Below, in pieces: positions 1,356-10,862 of a DNA stretch of 64,000 bases. Numbering within the stretch: the stretch's first letter is position 1; each line of letters opens with the position of its first letter. Origin of the DNA: Actinomadura coerulea. GTDB lineage: Bacteria; Actinomycetota; Actinomycetes; Streptosporangiales; Streptosporangiaceae. The stretch spans positions 186,001 through 250,000 of the forward strand of contig NZ_JACHMQ010000001.1 in NCBI RefSeq assembly GCF_014208105.1. Direction: 5' to 3'. Under the pieces are notes generated by a model. It saw nothing but the letters and a program-made list of their open reading frames with translations, did not search any database and was not told the DNA's origin. The position numbers were made by a program, and so were the translations under genes.

Positions 1356-2195
1356 TCAGACGCAGCCCTCGAATTGGGGGACGGTGGTGGTGGCCTTCAG
1401 CCCGGCGGGGCGGAACCACTTGTCCAGCAGCCGCGGCGCGGTGCCGTCCTGGTACATCCGCGTGATCGCCTTGTTGACCGCCTCGCAGCCGTCGACGTCG
1501 CCCTTCCTGATGCCGACGCCGTAGGGCTCGTCGGTGAACGGGGCGTTGACGAGCGTGAGGCCGCCCCGGGACGCCTTCGCCGCGAGGCCCGCGAGGATCA
1601 GGTCGTCGGTCGAGACCGCGTCCAGCCGCCCCCCGGTGAGGCCGGTGAGGCAGTCGGCGTAGCCGCTCGTCTCGACCGGCAGCGCGGCGACGCCCTGCTC
1701 GTCGTGGACGCGCGGGAACGACACCGACCCGGGCACGCGGCAGAGCCGCCGCCCTTTCAGGTCGTCGATGTTCCGGATGGAGCGGGCCTCGGACCTGCGG
1801 ACGAGAATGTCCTGGTGGGCCACATAGTAGGGACCCGCGAACGACACCTTCACCTTGCGTTCCGGCGTGATGGAATAGCTGGCCACCACGAGGTCGACGT
1901 CGCCGTCCTGGAGCATTTTCTCGCGGGTCGCCGACGTCACCCGCCGGAACGTCACGCCGGCGGCGGGCACGCGCATCCGCCGGGCGATCTCTTTCGCGAC
2001 GTCGATGTCGAATCCGGTGAACGAGCCGTCGTCCCGGCGTTCGCCGAGTCCCGGCTGGTCGCCGTTCACGCCGATGACGAGCGCGTCCTTTCCGGCGACG
2101 GAGTCCTCACGGGCGTCGGCGATCCCGCACGCCGTTCCCGCGCCGAGGACGGCCGCCGCGGCGAGCACCGCCGCCGCGAGGCGCCGCGCCCTCAC
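1356..2195 (-). CDS. glnH: GlnH-like amino-acid-binding lipoprotein
   Basis: Extracytoplasmic solute-binding protein of the SBP_bac_3 (glutamate/aspartate) type, 279 residues. A hydrophobic signal with GTAC around Cys23 indicates a lipoprotein. The mature part shows the family landmarks LVIGVNGDQPG, FTGFDIDVAKEIA, DLVVASYSITPER and VGIRKGD. In M. tuberculosis the equivalent GlnH binds Asp/Glu and signals through the membrane protein GlnX to kinase PknG; the same three genes occur here. I place the start at the GTG of 2195 because it forms a GTGA overlap with the preceding glnX-like stop, as at other junctions of this operon; an upstream in-frame GTG at 2204 is possible. No permease or ATPase genes lie nearby, supporting a sensory rather than transport role. 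Confidence 0.85.
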   Translation of the reverse strand: MRARRLAAAVLAAAAVLGAGTACGIADAREDSVAGKDALVIGVNGDQPGLGERRDDGSFTGFDIDVAKEIARRMRVPAAGVTFRRVTSATREKMLQDGDVDLVVASYSITPERKVKVSFAGPYYVAHQDILVRRSEARSIRNIDDLKGRRLCRVPGSVSFPRVHDEQGVAALPVETSGYADCLTGLTGGRLDAVSTDDLILAGLAAKASRGGLTLVNAPFTDEPYGVGIRKGDVDGCEAVNKAITRMYQDGTAPRLLDKWFRPAGLKATTTVPQFEGCV

Positions 2196-3703
2196 TTCGA
2201 CCACCGGTACTCGGCGAGGCGGGGGCGCACCCCGGCCAGGACGAGCGCGGCGATGACGGCGCCCGCGGCGGGCAGCACCGCGTACCAGCCGCTCGTGCCG
2301 CCGTCCCCGTCCTTCACGGCTTCGTCGAAGGCCTTCCGGTGGATGGCGACCAGCTCCTGCAGGGAGCGGTCGTACCGGGTGAAGTCGGCGGCGGCCGCGC
2401 CGCGGGCGGCGACCGCCTCGCCGCGCTGTCCCCGGTCGACGAGGTCGCGCATCCGGCGGTCGTTGGCCTGGACCTTCCGGTAGTCGGCGAGAACCCTGTT
2501 CATCGCGTCCGTGAGCTGCGCCTTCTGCCGGGCCGACTGGACCGGCCGGTCGGCCTCGGTGCCGAGGAAACCGAGGAACTTCGCGCGGCCGGGCTCGAAG
2601 GACAGGTCCTTCTGGACGGCCGCGTTGTACTGGGTCAGGTTCCCGGCCTTCAGGTAAAGGACGGTCTGGGACTTGCTCAGGTAGACCTGCTCGTAGGCGT
2701 CGGCCCGCCCGGGGTCGAGCAGGAACCGGGTCTCGTCGGCGTTCGCGCTGTTGCTGATGGCCCGCGTCCGCGAGAGCCCGAGGATCGAGTCGAAGCCCTC
2801 TTCCTTGGCCTGGCGCAGATGGTTCGCCTGGCCGGTGAGCATGAGGGACCCGGCCGCGACCAGGACGAGGGTGCCGAGCGTCGCCAGCGCGAGCGGGACG
2901 TTCAGCAGCCGCCGGAACCGCCGGGCCAGGAAGAGCTGGAACCCGGCCAGGACGGCCAGGAGCGCCAGGCCCGTGGCGAGGACGCCCGTGCGGCCCAGGA
3001 GGACCGCCGAGCGCTTGTCCTCGTAGGTGTGCCGGACGAGGGTGCCGTTGTCGAGCGTCAGGTTGTAGGCCTTCGGCAGCAGGTCCAGCTTCATCAGGTC
3101 GGTCGCCTGCCGGTAGAGGTCGACGACCTTCTGCGACGGCGGGCCGGACGCGTGCGGGGACTGCCGGTCCAGCAGCAGGGCCTGCCCGGCGAGGCGCTCG
3201 TAGCGGGCCAGCGCGTCCAGCAGGTCCCGGGCCGTGTTGTTCTCGGTCGTCTCGTCGGCGAGCTTCGCGGCCTTCAGCAGCGCGTCTCCGGCCTTGCGCC
3301 GGTCCTGGTCGTAGCGGGCGAGCGCCTGCTCGCGCCCGCCGCCCGCCGCGTCGCCGATCAGCAGCGCGTCGGCGAGCTGCGCGTCCATGTCGGAGAGCTG
3401 GAAGTACAGGTCGCCGGTGGCGACGACCTGCGGGCCCGCGTCGTGCCCGATGACCCGCACCCCCTCGCGGGCGTTCGCGATCGCCGCCCAGCCGACGCCG
3501 AGCAGCGCCACCAGCAGCACGAGCGACAGCGCGGTCAGCGTCCGGACACGGGCCGCGACGGTGCGGGGGAGCAGCCGCGCGAGACCGGACGGCCTCCCGC
3601 CGCCCGCCCCGGGCCGCGTGTCGCCGCCGCTCCGGGCGGGCGGCGACGGCTGCGCGGCGGGCGCCGGCCGCCCCGCCGGCGGGGACTGCTGGACGGCCGT
3701 CAT
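2192..3703 (-). CDS. glnX: GlnX-like four-helix transmembrane sensor
   Basis: A 503-residue membrane protein with a Pro/Ala-rich cytoplasmic N-terminus (1-50). Transmembrane helices lie near 55-76, 233-259, 268-290 and 473-492. Two long helical extracytoplasmic loops (about 80-230 and 292-470) resemble tandem four-helix-bundle sensor modules. This is the layout of mycobacterial GlnX, which couples GlnH to PknG. There is no kinase, HAMP-histidine kinase or methyl-accepting domain, so output must pass to another protein, presumably the PknG-type kinase of this operon. The ATG at 3703 overlaps the FHA gene stop by ATGA. The identification rests on position and topology rather than on strong sequence identity. 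Confidence 0.75.
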   Translation of the reverse strand: MTAVQQSPPAGRPAPAAQPSPPARSGGDTRPGAGGGRPSGLARLLPRTVAARVRTLTALSLVLLVALLGVGWAAIANAREGVRVIGHDAGPQVVATGDLYFQLSDMDAQLADALLIGDAAGGGREQALARYDQDRRKAGDALLKAAKLADETTENNTARDLLDALARYERLAGQALLLDRQSPHASGPPSQKVVDLYRQATDLMKLDLLPKAYNLTLDNGTLVRHTYEDKRSAVLLGRTGVLATGLALLAVLAGFQLFLARRFRRLLNVPLALATLGTLVLVAAGSLMLTGQANHLRQAKEEGFDSILGLSRTRAISNSANADETRFLLDPGRADAYEQVYLSKSQTVLYLKAGNLTQYNAAVQKDLSFEPGRAKFLGFLGTEADRPVQSARQKAQLTDAMNRVLADYRKVQANDRRMRDLVDRGQRGEAVAARGAAAADFTRYDRSLQELVAIHRKAFDEAVKDGDGGTSGWYAVLPAAGAVIAALVLAGVRPRLAEYRWSK

Positions 3704-4572
3704 GTCGCCTCGCCTCGTGTGAGCGTGATGGTGGTCCAGGCGCCCACGTGGATCCGGTCGCCCTCGGAGACCGGGACCTCCACGTTGTAGGGAATGGGGT
3801 CGGTGGAGCCGTTGACGCAGGTGCGGTTGGTCGAGCCGGGGTCGACCAGCGTCCAGGTGCCGTCGGGCTTCGCCAGCAGGACCGCGTGGACGTGGGAGAC
3901 GCCGGGGTCCTCGGGCGGCTCGCGCAGGTCGATCTCGGGCGGGGACGGCTGCGAGGAGCTGCGCCGCCCGATGCGGACCTGCTCCCCGGCGAGGGGGATC
4001 CGCCGTTCGGGCGCGTACGGGGGGAACGCCAGCGACGCCGAGTCGGGGCCTTCTTCGGCGATGACCGTGTTGTAGTACTCGCGGTCGGCGCGCACGACCG
4101 CCGTCCACACCGCCGCGGGCACCGGCGGCGCGGGAACGGGCGGCGCCGGGACCGGGGGAGCCGGGACCGGGGGAGCGGGAACGGGCGGCGCCGGCACCGG
4201 CGGGGCCGGAACGGGGGGCGCGGGGACGGGGGGTGCGGGCGGACGCCGCGGATCGGACGGCCCGCGCCGTGCCGTGCCCGGCCCGGACGGGACGGGCACC
4301 GGGGGCTCGGGTTCCGGCGCGGCCACGGGCGACGGCGACGGCGTCGGCGTCGGCGTCGGCCTGCCGCCGCCGATGGCGAAGTCGTAGCCGCACGCCTCGC
4401 AGAAGCGGTCGGTGCCGGGCGTCCCGCAGTCGGGGCACGAAGCCCCGCCCGGGGACGGCCGCGGGCCGGACGGCGGGGGTGCCGCGCCGGTGGTGGCGCC
4501 CTCGATGCGCTCGCCGCAGACGTCGCAGTAGTCCTGCGCCTGCGAGGTGTGTCCGCTAGGGCAACTCGCCAT
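3700..4572 (-). CDS. Zinc-ribbon FHA-domain protein (phosphothreonine reader)
   Basis: This 290-residue protein has three parts. Two zinc ribbons come first (C4/C16/C19 and C46/C49/C58/C61, e.g. YCDVCG and FCEACG). Next is a Pro-rich linker with about eight APPVP repeats (112-153). A C-terminal FHA domain (about 195-285) follows, with the loop landmarks IGRRSSS, SHVHAVLL and GSTNRTCVNG. FHA domains bind phosphothreonine peptides, so this is the likely reader of PknG phosphorylation, analogous in role to GarA, although the GarA ETTS phosphorylation motif is not visible. The ATG at 4572 lies 2 bp after the vWA stop, and the 3' end overlaps glnX by 4 nt. Cytoplasmic. Confidence 0.85.
   Translation of the reverse strand: MASCPSGHTSQAQDYCDVCGERIEGATTGAAPPPSGPRPSPGGASCPDCGTPGTDRFCEACGYDFAIGGGRPTPTPTPSPSPVAAPEPEPPVPVPSGPGTARRGPSDPRRPPAPPVPAPPVPAPPVPAPPVPAPPVPAPPVPAPPVPAPPVPAAVWTAVVRADREYYNTVIAEEGPDSASLAFPPYAPERRIPLAGEQVRIGRRSSSQPSPPEIDLREPPEDPGVSHVHAVLLAKPDGTWTLVDPGSTNRTCVNGSTDPIPYNVEVPVSEGDRIHVGAWTTITLTRGEAT
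4115..4240 (-). repeat. 15-bp in-frame repeat encoding APPVP units
   Basis: Eight degenerate 15-bp units of the type GGCGCGGGAACGGGC (plus strand) encode consecutive APPVP pentapeptides linking the zinc ribbons to the FHA domain. The unit count may vary between strains by slippage, changing linker length without shifting frame. Confidence 0.8.
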
Positions 4573-4574
4573 GC

Positions 4575-5915
4575 TCAGCCCTCGCCCCTCCTGGTGGTCA
4601 CCGTCTCGTCCTTGCGGGTCCGGACCGTCTTGCTGGAGCGCGTGTCGAGCTCCATCTCGTCGGCCTTGGCGACGTCGCGCTTCAGCCGGACCGTACCGGC
4701 CGCCTCGTCCACGACGTCCACCACCTTGCGGAGCATCGCGGTGATCTCCTCGTTGCCCGCCTCGCCCGCGAGCACCACGGCCCGGCCGAGCCGTGCCGTC
4801 GCGGTGTCGAGGTCGCCGTCCTTGCGGGCCTGCAGGCCCTCCTGGATCGCCGCGGCCAGCTCCGCCTGCCCGGTGTAGCCGGCCACCCGCGGGTTGATGC
4901 GGGTGGACTCCGCCTCGTCGTCGGTCCACTGGGCGAGGACGTTCGCGGTCGCGACGACGCGCGCCTCCTCGCCCGGCGGGCCCGGCACCACGAGCTTCAC
5001 CCACGCGGCGCGCAGCTCCTTGCCGATCTCGCCCGGCGGCACCTCCACGCAGATGTGGTAGTCGCGGCTCTCGGCGCCCCACGCGCCGAGCGGGTAGTCG
5101 CCGGCCTGCGGCGCCGACTCCGCGCGCTTGCCGGTGAGGTCCTCCACCGACGGGGAGACCTGCTTGACGAACCGCAGCCGGGCCGTCTGCGGGGTCCACA
5201 CGCGCAGGGCGACGTCGGCGACGGACTTGCCCATCGCCGCCTCCGTCATGGCGCGGAAGTCCTCGACCAGCCCGGCCGGGTCGGCCACCATGCCGACGCT
5301 GCCGAGCAGGGCGGAGGCGACCTTGCGCAGCTCGGCGACCTCCCAGTCGGTGCCGACGCCGCGGCAGTCGCAGACGAAGCGCCCGCCGCAGCGGGCCAGG
5401 GCCGCGTCGAGCTCCTCCGCCGTCTCGTGCTGGTTCTTGCCGTCGGTCAGCAGGATCGCGTGCCGGATGCCGTCGCGGCCGCCGAAGAGGTCGTCGGCCA
5501 GCCGCAGCCAGGACCCGATCGCGGTGCCGCCGGCCGCCGTCAGCCGGCTCAGCGCGTGCTTGGCCTCCGCGCGGGTCTCCGGGGTGGCGGGGACCGTCCC
5601 CTGGTGGCGGGGGAAGACCATCTTGGCGGTGTTGGAGCCGGAGACGACGGCGAACTCCACGCCGTCGCGCAGCGTGTCGACCGCGACCTGCGCGGCCGCG
5701 ATCGCCGCGCGCAGCTTGGTGTCGGGGTAGGACATCGAGCCGGAGGTGTCGATGATGACGACCTCGGACGCCCGGGTCGAGTACGCGACGGGGGCGCCCT
5801 CGCCCTCGCCCTCGCCCGCGCTCGCCTCGACGGACACGATGGCGTGCACCTCGCGGCCGCCCTCGGGCAGGAACTTGTTCTGGTCGATGGAGATGGTGAA
5901 CTGCGGCTCACTCAT
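4575..5915 (-). CDS. von Willebrand factor A domain protein
   Basis: A 446-residue cytoplasmic protein. Its vWA domain (about 50-230) has an intact MIDAS: DTSGS at 56-60, the Thr loop in AAGGTAIG and the Asp loop in LLTDGKNQ. A beta-rich segment follows, then a Lys/Arg/Glu-rich helical tail ending in several Thr-Arg clusters (KTVRTRKDETVTTRR). The tail threonines are plausible kinase targets, but that is inference. MIDAS domains bind protein partners through a divalent metal, so a scaffold or metal-dependent adaptor role fits. A GGAGGAG ribosome site precedes the ATG, which also overlaps the PP2C stop by ATGA. Confidence 0.85.
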   Translation of the reverse strand: MSEPQFTISIDQNKFLPEGGREVHAIVSVEASAGEGEGEGAPVAYSTRASEVVIIDTSGSMSYPDTKLRAAIAAAQVAVDTLRDGVEFAVVSGSNTAKMVFPRHQGTVPATPETRAEAKHALSRLTAAGGTAIGSWLRLADDLFGGRDGIRHAILLTDGKNQHETAEELDAALARCGGRFVCDCRGVGTDWEVAELRKVASALLGSVGMVADPAGLVEDFRAMTEAAMGKSVADVALRVWTPQTARLRFVKQVSPSVEDLTGKRAESAPQAGDYPLGAWGAESRDYHICVEVPPGEIGKELRAAWVKLVVPGPPGEEARVVATANVLAQWTDDEAESTRINPRVAGYTGQAELAAAIQEGLQARKDGDLDTATARLGRAVVLAGEAGNEEITAMLRKVVDVVDEAAGTVRLKRDVAKADEMELDTRSSKTVRTRKDETVTTRRGEG

Positions 5916-7201
5916 CGGGGCTCCTCCGTGCTCTGGGGGATGCTCTCGTGGACGCGGCCGCCGGAACCGCCGGGGAAGGGGACCGGGATCACGGCGACCG
6001 TGATGTTGTCGCGGCCGCCGGCCTCCAGCGCGCGGCTCACCAGCGTCCGCGCGGCGCCGAGCGGGTCGGCCGCCGGCCCCGGCGACCCGCCGCCGGGGCC
6101 GGCCAGCAGGGCCGCCAGGTCGGCGGCGGCCGGGAAGTAGTTCCACAGCCCGTCGCTGCACACCAGCAGCGTGCCGGGGCCGCCGGGCCGGAACGTCGCC
6201 ACGTGCGGGCTGACCTGCCCGGCGTCGGCGCCCAGCCACGCGGTGATGACGTGCGCGTTCGGGTGCGCCTCCGCCTCCGCCTCGGTCAGCGAGCCCTCGG
6301 CGACCATGAACGCGGCCCACGAGTCGTCCTCGGTGAGCCGGCGGGACGCGGCGAGCTCGGCCATGTCGCCGGTGCTGACCTCGGCCGCGTCCAGCTCGTC
6401 GGGCGCGGGCCCCGCCCCGGCGTCCTCGCCGGAGCCGTCGGCGGCCAGCCAGTAGGCGCGGCTGTCCCCGATCCAGCCGACGGTGACCGCCGGGCCGCGC
6501 GTCACCGCGGACACGTAGGTGCACGACGGCGCGTCGGACGGCGAGGTGGCGAGCGCGGCGACGGCGGCGGCCGCGCGCAGCGCCGCGTGCCGGGTGGCGT
6601 CCTCGGCGTCCTCCCCGGCGTCGAGCCGCGCCACCAGCTCGGCGAGGCCGGTGTCGGCCGCGGCGCGGGAGGCCTCGTCGGGACGCTGCGAGGAGCCGAC
6701 GCCGTCGGACACGACGGCCGCGACGCCGGACAGGTGCGCGGCGAGGGCCAGCGCGTCCTCGTTGCGGCTGTAGCGGCGGCCGCGGTCGCTCGCGCCCGCC
6801 GCGACGACCGGGCGGGTGCCGTTGCCGCCGGACCCGGCCGGCAGCTCGATCTCGACGTGGTCGCGTTCGGCGGGCTGGCGCAGGCCGCACGTCTCGCAGT
6901 AGCCGTCGGCGTCGATCGCCGTCCCGCCGCATCCGGGGCACGGGCCCGCCCCGCCCGCCCGGCGGGCGGAGGGCGCGGACTCCTGCCTGACCGTGGCGCC
7001 GTCGCGCCCGGCGGCCGCGGCGGGCGGGCCGTCGGCGAGCCGGTGCCCGCACTCCTCGCAGAAGATCTCCTCGGCGAACACCACGGCGCCGCAGGCGGGG
7101 CAGGACAGCTCGGCCGCCTTCCCCTGGTCCGTCCCGGCGGTGCCGGTTCCGGGTTCGTCGGTCCCGGTGGTGTCGCCGGCTCGGGTGTGGTCGTCGGTCA
7201 C
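5912..7201 (-). CDS. Zinc-ribbon PP2C-type protein phosphatase
   Basis: A 429-residue soluble Ser/Thr phosphatase. Two zinc ribbons (about 34-52, CPAC...CEECG; 88-106, CPGC...CETCG) precede a PP2C domain (about 130-420). All metal and phosphate motifs are present: SDRGRRYSRNEDAL, VVSDGVGSS, VGWIGDSRAYWL, LLVCSDGLWNY and GGRDNITV. It is the natural antagonist of the adjacent PknG-type kinase. The GTG start at 7201 overlaps the kinase stop (GTGA). An in-frame ATG at 7252 would lie inside the kinase gene and give an unlikely Arg-rich extension. No transmembrane helix, unlike mycobacterial PstP. Confidence 0.9.
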   Translation of the reverse strand: MTDDHTRAGDTTGTDEPGTGTAGTDQGKAAELSCPACGAVVFAEEIFCEECGHRLADGPPAAAAGRDGATVRQESAPSARRAGGAGPCPGCGGTAIDADGYCETCGLRQPAERDHVEIELPAGSGGNGTRPVVAAGASDRGRRYSRNEDALALAAHLSGVAAVVSDGVGSSQRPDEASRAAADTGLAELVARLDAGEDAEDATRHAALRAAAAVAALATSPSDAPSCTYVSAVTRGPAVTVGWIGDSRAYWLAADGSGEDAGAGPAPDELDAAEVSTGDMAELAASRRLTEDDSWAAFMVAEGSLTEAEAEAHPNAHVITAWLGADAGQVSPHVATFRPGGPGTLLVCSDGLWNYFPAAADLAALLAGPGGGSPGPAADPLGAARTLVSRALEAGGRDNITVAVIPVPFPGGSGGRVHESIPQSTEEPR

Positions 7202-9615
7202 AGCAGCGTCCTCGGGCGTACGGCGTTGGCGGAGTCGACGAGCCGGCGGCACTCGTCCCTGTCACGGGTGCGGCGTGCCAGCTCCCGGTATGTCCCTTCC
7301 AGCAGCCGGCGCACCGGGGCCTCGGCGAGCGCGGCGCCGAACAGGGAGCCGCCCTGCGCCCCGGCCGCCGTGCCGGAACCCGCCAGGATCCAGCCGAGCG
7401 CGGCCTCCAGCACCTCGGCGGCGAGCCTGTCGCGGCGCTCGGCGTCCAGGTCGAGGGCGGCGAGCCGGTGGCCCGCCGCGACCAGCTCGCCCGCCGTCAG
7501 CTCGGCGGGTGGACGGCCGCGCACCGCCGTCACGACGGCGGCGACCTGCGCGGGCACGTACCGGATGGAGATCTTCGGTACCGAGTCGAGCGCGGCGACG
7601 GCGGCGCGCCGGTCGCCCGCCGCCAGATGCACGCGGGCGAGGCCGAAGGCGGCGTTGATGTAGCTCTGGTCGGTGCGCCACACCGTCTCGTACAGGCGGA
7701 CCGCGTCGTGCGGCGCCGACCGCTCGCGGCAGTAGGCGAGGGCCAGCTTGGGGGCCGCCTCGCCGGGCAGCAGCCCGTACAGCCGGTCGAACAGCGGCGC
7801 GGCCTCGTCCACCCGGCCCCGCGCGAGCAGCCCGACCGCGCGGTACCAGCCGACCCGCCAGTCGGAGGGTCGCTCCGCGGCCAGCGTGTCGAGCAGCTCG
7901 TCGGCCTCGCCGGCCGCGCCCAGCTCGATCTTGGCGCGGGCGAGAGCCAGCCTGACCTCGGGCGTGCGGTCGGGCGCGTTCGCCGCCGCCTCGGCGGCTT
8001 GCGCGGGCTCCAGCGCGCCGAGCCCGGACACGAACGCGGCCGCGGGGTCGGCGCCGTCCACCAGCGGGACCGGCAGCGCCGCCGCGGCGACCGGCGGCGG
8101 GACGGGCGGCAGCGCCGCCTCCTCCCGCGCCTCGCCCGCCATCCGCGCCGTGAACCGCTCCGGGCCGAACAGCCCGGACGGCGCGGGGCGCGGGACGCCG
8201 TCCTCGGCCGCCAGCACCTCGCGCAGCACGCCGGTGAGCTGCTCGGCCATCTCCGCCGCGTCCTGGAAGCGCGCGGTCGGCTCCCTGTGCGTCGCGCGGC
8301 GCAGCAGCCGGTCGTAGGACTCGAACCGCCGCAGGACGGGGATCTCCTCGCGCGGCGGCAGGGAGTCGGCGTACCGGCGGGTGTAGCCCTTGAACGGGAA
8401 GCTCAGCACGGCGAGCGCCCGGCCGACCGTGTAGAGGTCGGAGGACACCGAGGGACCTGCGTCGGCGATCTCCGGGGCCTGGTAGCCGACCGTGCCGTAG
8501 ATCGCGCCGTCCGGGTCGTCGAGCCGCCGCACCCCGCCGAGGTCGATCAGCCTGAGCTGCTCCTCGGACTGGATCACGTTGTCCGGCTTGAAGTCGCAGT
8601 AGACGAGGCCCTGGGCGTGCAGGTACTCGAACGCCCGCAGCACCTCCAGCCCGTAGGCGATGGCCTGCGCGAGCGGCAGGTGCTTGCCGCCGGTCGGGAG
8701 CGGCTGCCGCAGCAGGATGTCCTTGAGGGACTCCCCGCCCACGTACTCCATGACGATGTAGCCGTCGCCGCCGTGTTGGACGAAGTTGTAGATCTTGACG
8801 ATGTTGGGGTGCTCGACCTCCGCGAGGAACGCGCGCTCGGCCGCCGCCGCGGCCATCGCGTCGGCGTCGCCGCTGTCGAGCAGGCCCTTCAGGACGACCC
8901 AGCGGTCGCTGACGTTCTTGTCCTGGGCCAGGTAGATCCAGCCGAGCCCGCCGTGGGCGAGGCAGCCCAGCACGCTGTACTGGCCGCCGACGAGGTCGCC
9001 CGGGCCGAGCTTGGGGGTGAAGGAGAACCGGGCGCCGCACTTGGGGCAGAAGCCCTCCGTGCGGCCCGGCCGGTCGCCGCGCCCGCGGCCGACGGGCTCG
9101 CCGCAGCCGCTGCAGTACCGCTTGGCCTCCGCGACCTGCGGGTCGCTCATCACCGCGCTGGACGGGTCCCGGTAGGGAACGCGCGGCACCTCGACGAGCC
9201 CGGCGCCGAGCATGCCGCGGCGGCCGGAGGAGCGTGCCGACCCGGTGCGGGTGCTTCCCGTCCGGGTGCTGCCGGTCGCCGTGCTGCCCGATGTGCCCGC
9301 GGTCCCCGACGTGCCCGCGGTCCCCGACGTGCCCGCGGCCCCCGAGGTGCCCGCGCCGCCGGACGCGCCCGCGGCGGCCTGGACACGGGCGGTGTAGGCG
9401 GGCGGTGAGCCGCACACGTCGCAGTAGCCGTCCATGATCGTGCCGGCGCAGCCGGCCTGGTGGCACTGGTCGGGCCGCTCGGCGGGCGGGCGCGGGGCCG
9501 GAACGCTCGGCGCGGCGGCCGGCGCGGGCGCGGCGACCGCCGGTGGATTGCCGCAGACGTCGCAGTAGCCGTCCGCGATCGTCCCGCCGCAGCCCGGCTG
9601 CGCGCACTGGCTCAT
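7198..9615 (-). CDS. pknG: PknG-type serine/threonine protein kinase
   Basis: An 805-residue soluble kinase closely matching the M. tuberculosis PknG architecture. The order is: two extra N-terminal C-x4-C...C-x2-C ribbons (4-21, 51-68), a Gly/Ser/Thr repeat linker (88-130), the PknG rubredoxin-like CSGCG...CPKCG (168-193), the kinase domain (about 213-470) and a TPR-like C-terminus (540-805) ending NAVRPRTLL. Kinase landmarks include the glycine loop HGGLGWIYLA, Lys243, catalytic Asp341 in YCDFKPDN, DLG (not DFG) at 358-360, and YQAPE. The DLG and the Cys before the catalytic Asp follow PknG-type divergence. It has no membrane helix. In mycobacteria PknG responds to GlnH/GlnX and controls 2-oxoglutarate metabolism through GarA. 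The ATG at 9615 overlaps the upstream gene (ATGA). Confidence 0.95.
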   Translation of the reverse strand: MSQCAQPGCGGTIADGYCDVCGNPPAVAAPAPAAAPSVPAPRPPAERPDQCHQAGCAGTIMDGYCDVCGSPPAYTARVQAAAGASGGAGTSGAAGTSGTAGTSGTAGTSGSTATGSTRTGSTRTGSARSSGRRGMLGAGLVEVPRVPYRDPSSAVMSDPQVAEAKRYCSGCGEPVGRGRGDRPGRTEGFCPKCGARFSFTPKLGPGDLVGGQYSVLGCLAHGGLGWIYLAQDKNVSDRWVVLKGLLDSGDADAMAAAAAERAFLAEVEHPNIVKIYNFVQHGGDGYIVMEYVGGESLKDILLRQPLPTGGKHLPLAQAIAYGLEVLRAFEYLHAQGLVYCDFKPDNVIQSEEQLRLIDLGGVRRLDDPDGAIYGTVGYQAPEIADAGPSVSSDLYTVGRALAVLSFPFKGYTRRYADSLPPREEIPVLRRFESYDRLLRRATHREPTARFQDAAEMAEQLTGVLREVLAAEDGVPRPAPSGLFGPERFTARMAGEAREEAALPPVPPPVAAAALPVPLVDGADPAAAFVSGLGALEPAQAAEAAANAPDRTPEVRLALARAKIELGAAGEADELLDTLAAERPSDWRVGWYRAVGLLARGRVDEAAPLFDRLYGLLPGEAAPKLALAYCRERSAPHDAVRLYETVWRTDQSYINAAFGLARVHLAAGDRRAAVAALDSVPKISIRYVPAQVAAVVTAVRGRPPAELTAGELVAAGHRLAALDLDAERRDRLAAEVLEAALGWILAGSGTAAGAQGGSLFGAALAEAPVRRLLEGTYRELARRTRDRDECRRLVDSANAVRPRTLL
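9238..9350 (-). repeat. In-frame Gly-Thr-Ser repeat in pknG linker
   Basis: Tandem 18-bp units of the type GTGCCCGCGGTCCCCGAC on the plus strand encode GTSGTA-like repeats, followed by a GSTRT duplication. Together they form a flexible linker between the N-terminal ribbons and the rubredoxin-kinase core, and are likely prone to copy-number change. Confidence 0.7.
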
Positions 9616-10862
9616 CGATCCGCTCCCTTCGTCCGCGAGGTGACGGCCCGCTGGTACGCGGTCAGGGCCACGGTGGCCTTCCGCAGATCGCAGGGGGAGG
9701 TCCACAGCAGCTCGCGTGCCTGCTGGTAGGACCGGGCCAGTTCTGCGTCCTCGGCATGGCCGAGCCGCGAGGCCTTCACCCGGTAGGCCCGCAGGCGGCC
9801 GCGCAGTTCCTCGCGCCGGTCCAGCAGGCCCCGGATCAGGCCGGTGGTCTCGTGTGCCCGCTCCAGCGCCGCGCCGGCGGCGCGTTCCAGGTCGGCGACG
9901 CGCTGCGCGGTCTCGCGCCAGCCGCCGCCCCGCGCGGCCGCGCCCGGCCGGGGCCGGGTGACGGCGGCCAGGCGGTCGGCGAGGGCGGCGGAGGAGCCGG
10001 GCAGGTCCGGCAGCGCGGGCGCGGCGATCTTGACGAGGACCTCGTCCCGGACGGCGCGCGCCTCCGCCTCGGCCTCGCGCAGCAGGTCCAGGACGGCGGC
10101 GACGCCGCGGATCCGGGCGGCGAACCCCTCGCGCAGCCGCTCCGCCTCCTCCAGGCCGCGGCGCACCTCGGCGAGGCCGGAGCGGATCGCGTCCAGCCGC
10201 ACGGTGTCGGCGTGGCCGTCGCGCGCCAGCGCGAGCGGGTCGGCGCGCACGGTCGCGGCGACGGTCTCCAGCTCGTCGCGGAGCCGCTCGAAGGCCGGGT
10301 CCGCGCCGCCGGCGGACTCCAGCAGCTCCTCGGCCGCCCGCCGCTCGGCCTCGACCTCGGCCAGCCGCGACAGCAGCGTCGACCAGACCGCGTCGAGCGC
10401 GGCGACGGCCCGCGCGACCTCTTCGTAGAGCGGCGTCATCCGGTCGACCGCCGCCCGCGGCGTCAGCCTCTCGCCGGACGGGACGGCCAGCAGCGTCCGC
10501 CGCTCCAGCGGCACCTCCGCCGCGGGCAGCTCCACCGACGGCCCCTCCAGGAGGCGGGTGAGCTCGGCGAGCTGCGCCTGGCCGGGCCTGCCGTGGCGGG
10601 CCCGCAGCTCCTCGGCGGACGACAGGACGCGCCCGTGCAGGTCGAACAGCAGCCACAGGGACGCCGTCCGCGACCGCACGTCGGACTGCACGCGCAGCGT
10701 CGCGCCCCGCAGCGCCGCGCCCTCCAGCAGCTGGTACCCCTGGTGGGCCTCCAGCTCCAGCAGGGCCGCGCCGATCCGCTCCCTCTCGTCCCGGAGGCGC
10801 GCGAGCGCCCGGTCCGCCTCGTCTCGGCTCATCGGGGGCCGGTCCAGGCGCGGCTCACTCAA
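9612..10862 (-). CDS. Coiled-coil protein heading the PknG operon
   Basis: A 416-residue Ala/Arg/Glu/Leu-rich protein of unknown function. It is nearly all helical, with long heptad stretches at about 10-45, 150-290 and 330-400, and has no signal peptide or membrane segment. It is the first gene of the operon and overlaps pknG by ATGA, so it is probably made with the kinase and could be an adaptor or substrate. The start is uncertain: a TTG at 10862 gives the full length, and an ATG at 10832 would remove ten residues. Neither has a strong ribosome site. I do not recognise homologues. Confidence 0.75.
   Translation of the reverse strand: MSEPRLDRPPMSRDEADRALARLRDERERIGAALLELEAHQGYQLLEGAALRGATLRVQSDVRSRTASLWLLFDLHGRVLSSAEELRARHGRPGQAQLAELTRLLEGPSVELPAAEVPLERRTLLAVPSGERLTPRAAVDRMTPLYEEVARAVAALDAVWSTLLSRLAEVEAERRAAEELLESAGGADPAFERLRDELETVAATVRADPLALARDGHADTVRLDAIRSGLAEVRRGLEEAERLREGFAARIRGVAAVLDLLREAEAEARAVRDEVLVKIAAPALPDLPGSSAALADRLAAVTRPRPGAAARGGGWRETAQRVADLERAAGAALERAHETTGLIRGLLDRREELRGRLRAYRVKASRLGHAEDAELARSYQQARELLWTSPCDLRKATVALTAYQRAVTSRTKGADR

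Follow-up and report, generated by a model that had tools for sequence, protein, structure and literature searches.

The operon described here resembles two systems that are already known. The first is the GlnH-GlnX-PknG system of Mycobacterium tuberculosis, M. smegmatis, and Corynebacterium glutamicum; accounts of M. tuberculosis and C. glutamicum describe glnX, glnH, and pknG alone (PMC6069109, PMC8546545). The second is the ArnA-ArnB pair from the archaellum regulatory network of Sulfolobus, for which PMC6509490, PMC7472852, and PMC12852372 describe contact between the ArnA zinc finger and unphosphorylated ArnB, phosphorylation of the helical bundle of ArnB by ArnC, subsequent tight binding of ArnB by the FHA domain, and reversal by PP2A, with the state of the pair tracking nutrient supply. 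We analyzed a stretch of 64,000 nucleotides from Actinomadura coerulea (referred to from here on as the window, whose positions are used as coordinates) and focused on seven genes at 1356-10832, all on the minus strand, which, according to open reading frame calls, encode in order a coiled-coil protein, PknG, a PP2C phosphatase, a vWA protein, an FHA protein, GlnX, and GlnH. The genes present, their conservation and organization as an operon, the integrity of the active sites, the modeled vWA fold, and the conservation of a tail on the vWA protein were established directly. We give about even chances to the reading that the operon is an amino acid-gated phosphorylation switch with a pair of ArnA-ArnB-like proteins as its output stage, the reactions and interactions of which we infer.

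The GlnH-GlnX-PknG core of the operon has the same protein families and domain make-up as the described system. The PknG-type Ser/Thr kinase (7198..9615, minus strand, 805 amino acids) matches Pfam families PknG_rubred (PF16919; 7e-30), Pkinase (PF00069; 1.2e-28), and PknG_TPR (PF16918; 1.8e-88), as well as the M. tuberculosis PknG structure 2pzi (E 1e-164), and consists of two N-terminal Cys-rich ribbons, a Ser/Thr/Arg-rich segment, and the rubredoxin (135-203), kinase (217-470), and TPR (480-803) domains of known PknG proteins. Its catalytic residues K243, D341, K343, N346, and D358 are invariant in 87 of 87 homologues, and its nearest relative is 94% identical. The GlnX-family membrane signal protein (2192..3703, minus strand, 503 amino acids) scores 285.3 bits against NCBIfam NF058618, above the curated cut-off of 250, and does not reach the narrower equivalog NF041460 (kinase G-activating GlnX) in the NCBIfam search; hydropathy peaks predict four transmembrane segments (58-76, 241-259, 271-289, and 474-492). 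The GlnH-like solute-binding lipoprotein (1356..2195, minus strand) matches SBP_bac_3 (Pfam, 5.5e-31) and M. tuberculosis GlnH (6h1u; E 1.7e-34), with the lipid-bearing Cys26 kept in 76 of 76 homologues and R94, R116, and D200 in all 77. When the protein was aligned with 6h1u, R147, S164, R169, and D250 (M. tuberculosis numbering), for which ligand-binding roles are described (PMC6069109), were kept, and three other residues were changed (T162S, W232Y, and K161A). The residues for an acidic ligand are thus mostly retained, and an acidic amino acid is the predicted ligand of GlnH.

The operon differs from those of the M. tuberculosis type, which lack genes for PP2C, vWA, FHA, and coiled-coil proteins, in having all four. 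A contrast with M. tuberculosis had been drawn in an earlier note on this DNA, and it holds against both published descriptions. The seven tightly linked genes that the note had reported are also all present, with two starts refined. First, for glnH, the GTG at 2195, which overlaps the glnX stop, is more likely the start than the alternative at 2204. Second, the start of the coiled-coil gene is better set at the ATG at 10832 (406 amino acids) than at the alternative TTG at 10862 (416 amino acids), because its homologues begin with MSRxE. The stop of one gene overlaps the start of the next by 4 bases at five of the six junctions, and a 2-base gap separates vWA from FHA; we therefore read the seven genes as one translationally coupled operon. 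The joining of phosphatase, FHA, and vWA genes to GlnH-GlnX-PknG is supported in the sense of dedicated neighbors. Absent from the note were the likeness to archaeal ArnA-ArnB, which tells us most, the near-invariant tail of the vWA protein, and the sign that the short operon of mycobacteria is derived.

The vWA protein (4575..5915, minus strand, 446 amino acids) matches VWA_2 (2e-13) and VWA_3_C (6e-20) in Pfam, and the residues of its metal ion-dependent adhesion site (D56, S58, S60, T131, and D158) are invariant in 59 homologues. A structure model made from 59 homologues (predicted local distance difference test score (pLDDT) 92) consists of a split β-sandwich, a vWA domain with this site intact, a C-terminal helical bundle, and a tail. 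The model matches the Protein Data Bank (PDB) entry 4fx5 (Z 52.4, 55% identity), ArnB of Sulfolobus (8s05_A; Z 30.2 over 368 residues, root mean square deviation 3.8), and the ArnB paralogue vWA2/ArnE (5a8j; Z 27.6); most of the lower rows (Z ≤ 24.5) are single vWA domains. Over its full length, the sequence is only 14% identical to ArnB. Judged by the model, the entire three-domain plan of ArnB, and not just a single vWA domain, is present in the vWA protein. The protein in 4FX5 (caci_2163 of Catenulispora acidiphila), the title of which names no function, is a direct homologue of the operon vWA protein with the same tail, STKTVR. Its likeness to ArnB/vWA2 is pointed out in PMC6509490, in passages that mention no gene neighborhood, PknG, or FHA partner for it.

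The tail (LDTRSSKTVRTRK, 4611..4649, minus strand) directly follows the last helix and has the consensus ADEMxLDTRS(T/S/V)(K/R)TVRxR. Each of the 106 loci with an FHA gene has both Ser427 and Thr430 in this tail, in sequences down to ~50% identity. The structural alignment to ArnB stops at model residue 430 (ArnB residue 378), close to the ArnB phosphosites T371-T375 given in PMC12852372. Counted column by column, one of the two residues is changed in five of the eight complete vWA proteins from loci with no linked FHA gene; this contrast is suggestive only. An initial regular-expression count, by which the tail would be wholly lost from such loci, was rejected on the column-wise result. We regard the Ser427/Thr430 tail, on the strength of its conservation, as a candidate PknG phosphosite and candidate FHA docking site. 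The VWA phosphoprotein SRIM_014225 of the Streptomyces rimosus phosphoproteome (PMC9600765) could not be mapped to this vWA family.

The second member of the putative output pair, the zinc-ribbon FHA protein (3700..4572, minus strand, 290 amino acids), matches Pfam FHA (3.5e-11), with a weak zinc-ribbon match, and consists of two zinc ribbons, a Pro-rich linker, and a C-terminal FHA domain. In the alignment of its family (A3), ribbon residues C4, H8, C16, C19, C46, C49, and C58 and FHA-domain residues S226, H229, N249, and N254 are invariant, and R203 is kept in 68 of 72 homologues. The profile from this alignment aligns to ArnA across both ribbon and FHA domain (8s05_C and 5a8i, profile positions 41/44-227/228; E 3.9e-7 for 41-227), whereas GarA is aligned over the FHA part only; ArnA has one zinc ribbon and the operon protein has two. 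The linker, encoded around 4120-4250, is a tandem PVPAPP repeat, and linker length differs widely among relatives. We rejected the identification of this protein as GarA; a phmmer search with it returned no GarA at E 0.01, and the true GarA orthologue (E 6e-49 to mycobacterial GarA) is encoded elsewhere in the host genome, at G000:C1:1890686 (L002). The known FHA target is therefore not joined to the kinase in the operon. The host GarA has an N-terminal zinc ribbon, and at the place of the phosphorylation motif of M. tuberculosis GarA, ETTS, it reads STSTIS. Short Cys-rich ribbons, of the YC(D/E)xCG or FCSNCG type, are common to the N termini of PknG, PP2C, the FHA protein, and GarA and may be a common docking element.

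The PP2C phosphatase (5912..7201, minus strand, 429 amino acids, GTG start) has Pfam matches to PP2C_2 (1.1e-10) and, in its N-terminal part, to a double zinc ribbon (DZR, 5.4e-7); its metal-binding residues D139, D166, D350, and D398 show little or no variation among 75-76 homologues. The coiled-coil or helical protein encoded by the first gene (9612..10832, minus strand), a candidate scaffold, has no convincing match in Pfam or NCBIfam, and its model shows long helices (mean pLDDT 93) for which Foldseek found no match in the PDB (E > 0.1). Its best PDB match, EzrA (Z 12.2), is below the level that is trustworthy for helical proteins, and we did not accept this likeness, as such a score can reflect a common helical arrangement.

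Compared with the Arn network, the operon has counterparts of the zinc-ribbon-FHA protein and its β-sandwich/vWA/helical-bundle partner, a Hanks-type kinase, a phosphatase, and a nutrient signal; further, where ArnB of Sulfolobus has phosphorylated Ser/Thr residues near its C terminus, the operon protein has conserved ones. It differs in that the kinase is PknG with its own amino acid sensor in the same operon. In the mechanism that we propose, GlnH would bind an acidic amino acid on the outer side of the membrane, and GlnX would relay the signal to the TPR domain of PknG, which would then phosphorylate the vWA protein in its C-terminal tail, at Ser427/Thr430 or close by. Once phosphorylated, the tail would be bound by the zinc-ribbon protein through its FHA domain, so that a loose ribbon contact tightens into a complex acting on a target; the PP2C of the operon would strip the phosphate from the tail, and the coiled-coil protein would assemble the parts. 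GarA may be a second substrate of PknG.

By the earlier note, a neighborhood unique to this strain would have refuted its reading. The neighborhood is not unique, as the gene order is conserved far beyond the strain, and the same gene set recurs in tens of genomes. Full or near-full sets (islands) were found in Actinomadura, Actinoallomurus, Nocardiopsis, Nocardia, Phytohabitans, Paractinoplanes, Kutzneria, Amycolatopsis, and Yinghuangia, as well as in a genome of another class (L130); Streptomyces genomes probably carry the set too. Two gene orders occur, with the sensor genes either last, as in the window, or first. A linkage survey of 395 genomes of the class found VWA_3_C in 97, at 112 places, at least 79 of which are 1.3-5.1 kb from a PknG_TPR place among the matches listed; each of the 79 follows its PknG_TPR place downstream, on the same strand. 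Among the remaining 33 are contig ends, places for which PknG is not among the matches listed, and cassettes without PknG. In the host's own family, the vWA protein occurs in 93 of 181 genomes and 37 of 68 genera. The flanks of 22 diverse loci (mostly island loci) had no further gene family common to most, antisense shadows aside. The host genome contains a second complete, diverged seven-gene island (L132, at about C1:6335510-6345000) and no third PknG. We note that many Actinomadura carry both copies of the island and that one actinobacterial genome, G720 (L169-L171), has four PknG genes, one in a full island, with the two others examined lacking adjoining PP2C, vWA, and FHA genes. The genes SCO4775-4779 of S. 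coelicolor were rejected as a described counterpart, being five separately transcribed kinase genes in an account that mentions neither FHA nor PknG (PMC4416010).

Loci with partial sets bear on how the components belong together. In Frankia-like genomes, PP2C-vWA-FHA cassettes stand without PknG (L139, L140, L141, and L145), and the three proteins thus form a unit. The upstream kinase at L142, L147, and L152 scores as a reduced PknG-like protein, at L147 apparently without the TPR part. Six divergent loci (L148, L149, L173, L179, L180, and L181) have PknG and the vWA protein, most of them with the coiled-coil protein, without PP2C or FHA. At L149, L179, L180, and L181, a zinc ribbon is found at the end of the vWA protein, as if the ribbon of the reader had been transferred to it. 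The Nocardiopsis-group islands L051, L057, L072, L074, L064, and L160 lost vWA and kept FHA, PP2C, and the rest; at L064 and L160, a short vWA remnant is left.

Several observations weigh against an ArnA-ArnB-like output stage. First, the Nocardiopsis-group loci L051, L057, L072, and L074 lost vWA and keep FHA, which requires a different partner for the FHA protein at these loci, perhaps the N terminus of PknG in phosphorylated form. Second, the contrast in the tail comes from eight loci, in a count from which shared ancestry was not removed, and the tail is still kept at L042 and L044, two loci of the Actinomadura group with no linked FHA gene. Third, when the FHA domain is taken by itself, GarA and ArnA are about equally good matches to the profile. 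Fourth, the eraser is PP2C in the operon and PP2A in the Arn network; because of this difference, we call the system Arn-like and not a member of the ArnA-ArnB module.

The persistence of FHA where vWA is lost fits the main alternative, one that we consider possible, if doubtful, in which the operon is an extension of the published pathway: GlnH, GlnX, and PknG would control GarA and 2-oxoglutarate dehydrogenase, and the added genes would only tune this control, with FHA docking onto the autophosphorylated N terminus of PknG, PP2C acting on GarA or PknG, and the vWA protein serving as an assembly factor. The Ser/Thr/Arg-rich N terminus of the window PknG, which is like that of known PknG proteins, is consistent with such docking. 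Further, the genome has GarA and only two PknG genes, both in islands, which makes an island PknG the obvious PknG-type kinase for this GarA. However, this alternative leaves the near-invariant tail of the vWA protein, the ArnA-like ribbon-FHA architecture, and the PknG-less PP2C-vWA-FHA cassettes unexplained, and the STSTIS of host GarA, where the M. tuberculosis protein has ETTS, speaks against it. The ArnA-ArnB-like switch and control of GarA may also hold together.

The TerY-phosphorylation (TerY-P) triad has an antiviral role and is not known to have a sensor or a zinc-ribbon FHA pair. It shares vWA, PP2C, and kinase classes with the window operon, in which the same three classes adjoin, and it is listed among defense systems in a commentary on Gao et al. 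(PMC7699616). We think it improbable that the operon is a TerY-P-like stress or defense triad that recruited a PknG kinase, as its vWA protein has the three-domain ArnB fold, an amino acid sensor is part of the operon, and the distribution looks vertical and not island-like. The vWA protein had no TerY-type match in the padloc defense library, in which the presence of a TerY model was not checked, and a defense reading based on padloc matches was dropped, as only generic kinase models fit. That these are adjoining signaling genes without a joint function, as the individual loss of members in some lineages might suggest, is more improbable still, given that their reading frames overlap, that many families and another class (L130) have the same set, and that a single genome holds two complete copies.

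To place the short mycobacterial operon relative to the full set, we used a maximum-likelihood, unrooted tree of 59 PknG sequences. The short mycobacterial and corynebacterial operon groups beside full islands of Nocardia (100/100), and the other reduced loci are scattered. The label "none of PP2C, vWA, FHA" takes five changes on this tree, and a single group of such loci is found in no bootstrap tree. The contig of L072, labeled Glycomyces fuscus, carries a PknG that branches within Nocardiopsis beside N. alborubida, and the record is probably misnamed or contaminated. Because the full set occurs in many families and another class and the reduced loci scatter on the tree, repeated loss is the simpler reading. 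This suggests that the short mycobacterial operon arose through gene loss and that the lineages in which the PknG circuit was published probably lost four partner genes. We more tentatively propose a wider reading, which we would sooner expect to fail than to hold: the operon would be a bacterial counterpart of the ArnA-ArnB switch, wired to an amino acid sensor and gating a metabolic or developmental change in filamentous actinobacteria, and the ancestral actinobacterial PknG pathway would be the full system, reduced in M. tuberculosis and C. glutamicum to a remnant operon with the GarA branch alone.

The GlnH-GlnX-PknG core and the ArnA-ArnB pair were each already known. A literature search, for which subscription papers were mostly outside the scope, found no description of the two joined in a single operon, of how widely this operon occurs, or of the mycobacterial form as a reduced one, and no paper linking PknG to ArnB-like proteins or to vWA, PP2C, and FHA together. 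The likeness of this operon of soil actinobacteria to ArnA-ArnB suggests one kind of starvation switch common to bacteria and archaea. A solved bacterial structure, 4FX5, is tied to a mechanism known from archaeal work, and a cross-domain FHA-vWA starvation switch becomes a question for a few recombinant proteins. PknG has been studied as a kinase of tuberculosis and of amino acid producers, and the full set in Actinomadura and probably Streptomyces provides direct candidates for its other substrate, its eraser, and its reader. In antibiotic producers, we speculate that the operon may couple amino acid supply to metabolic switching.

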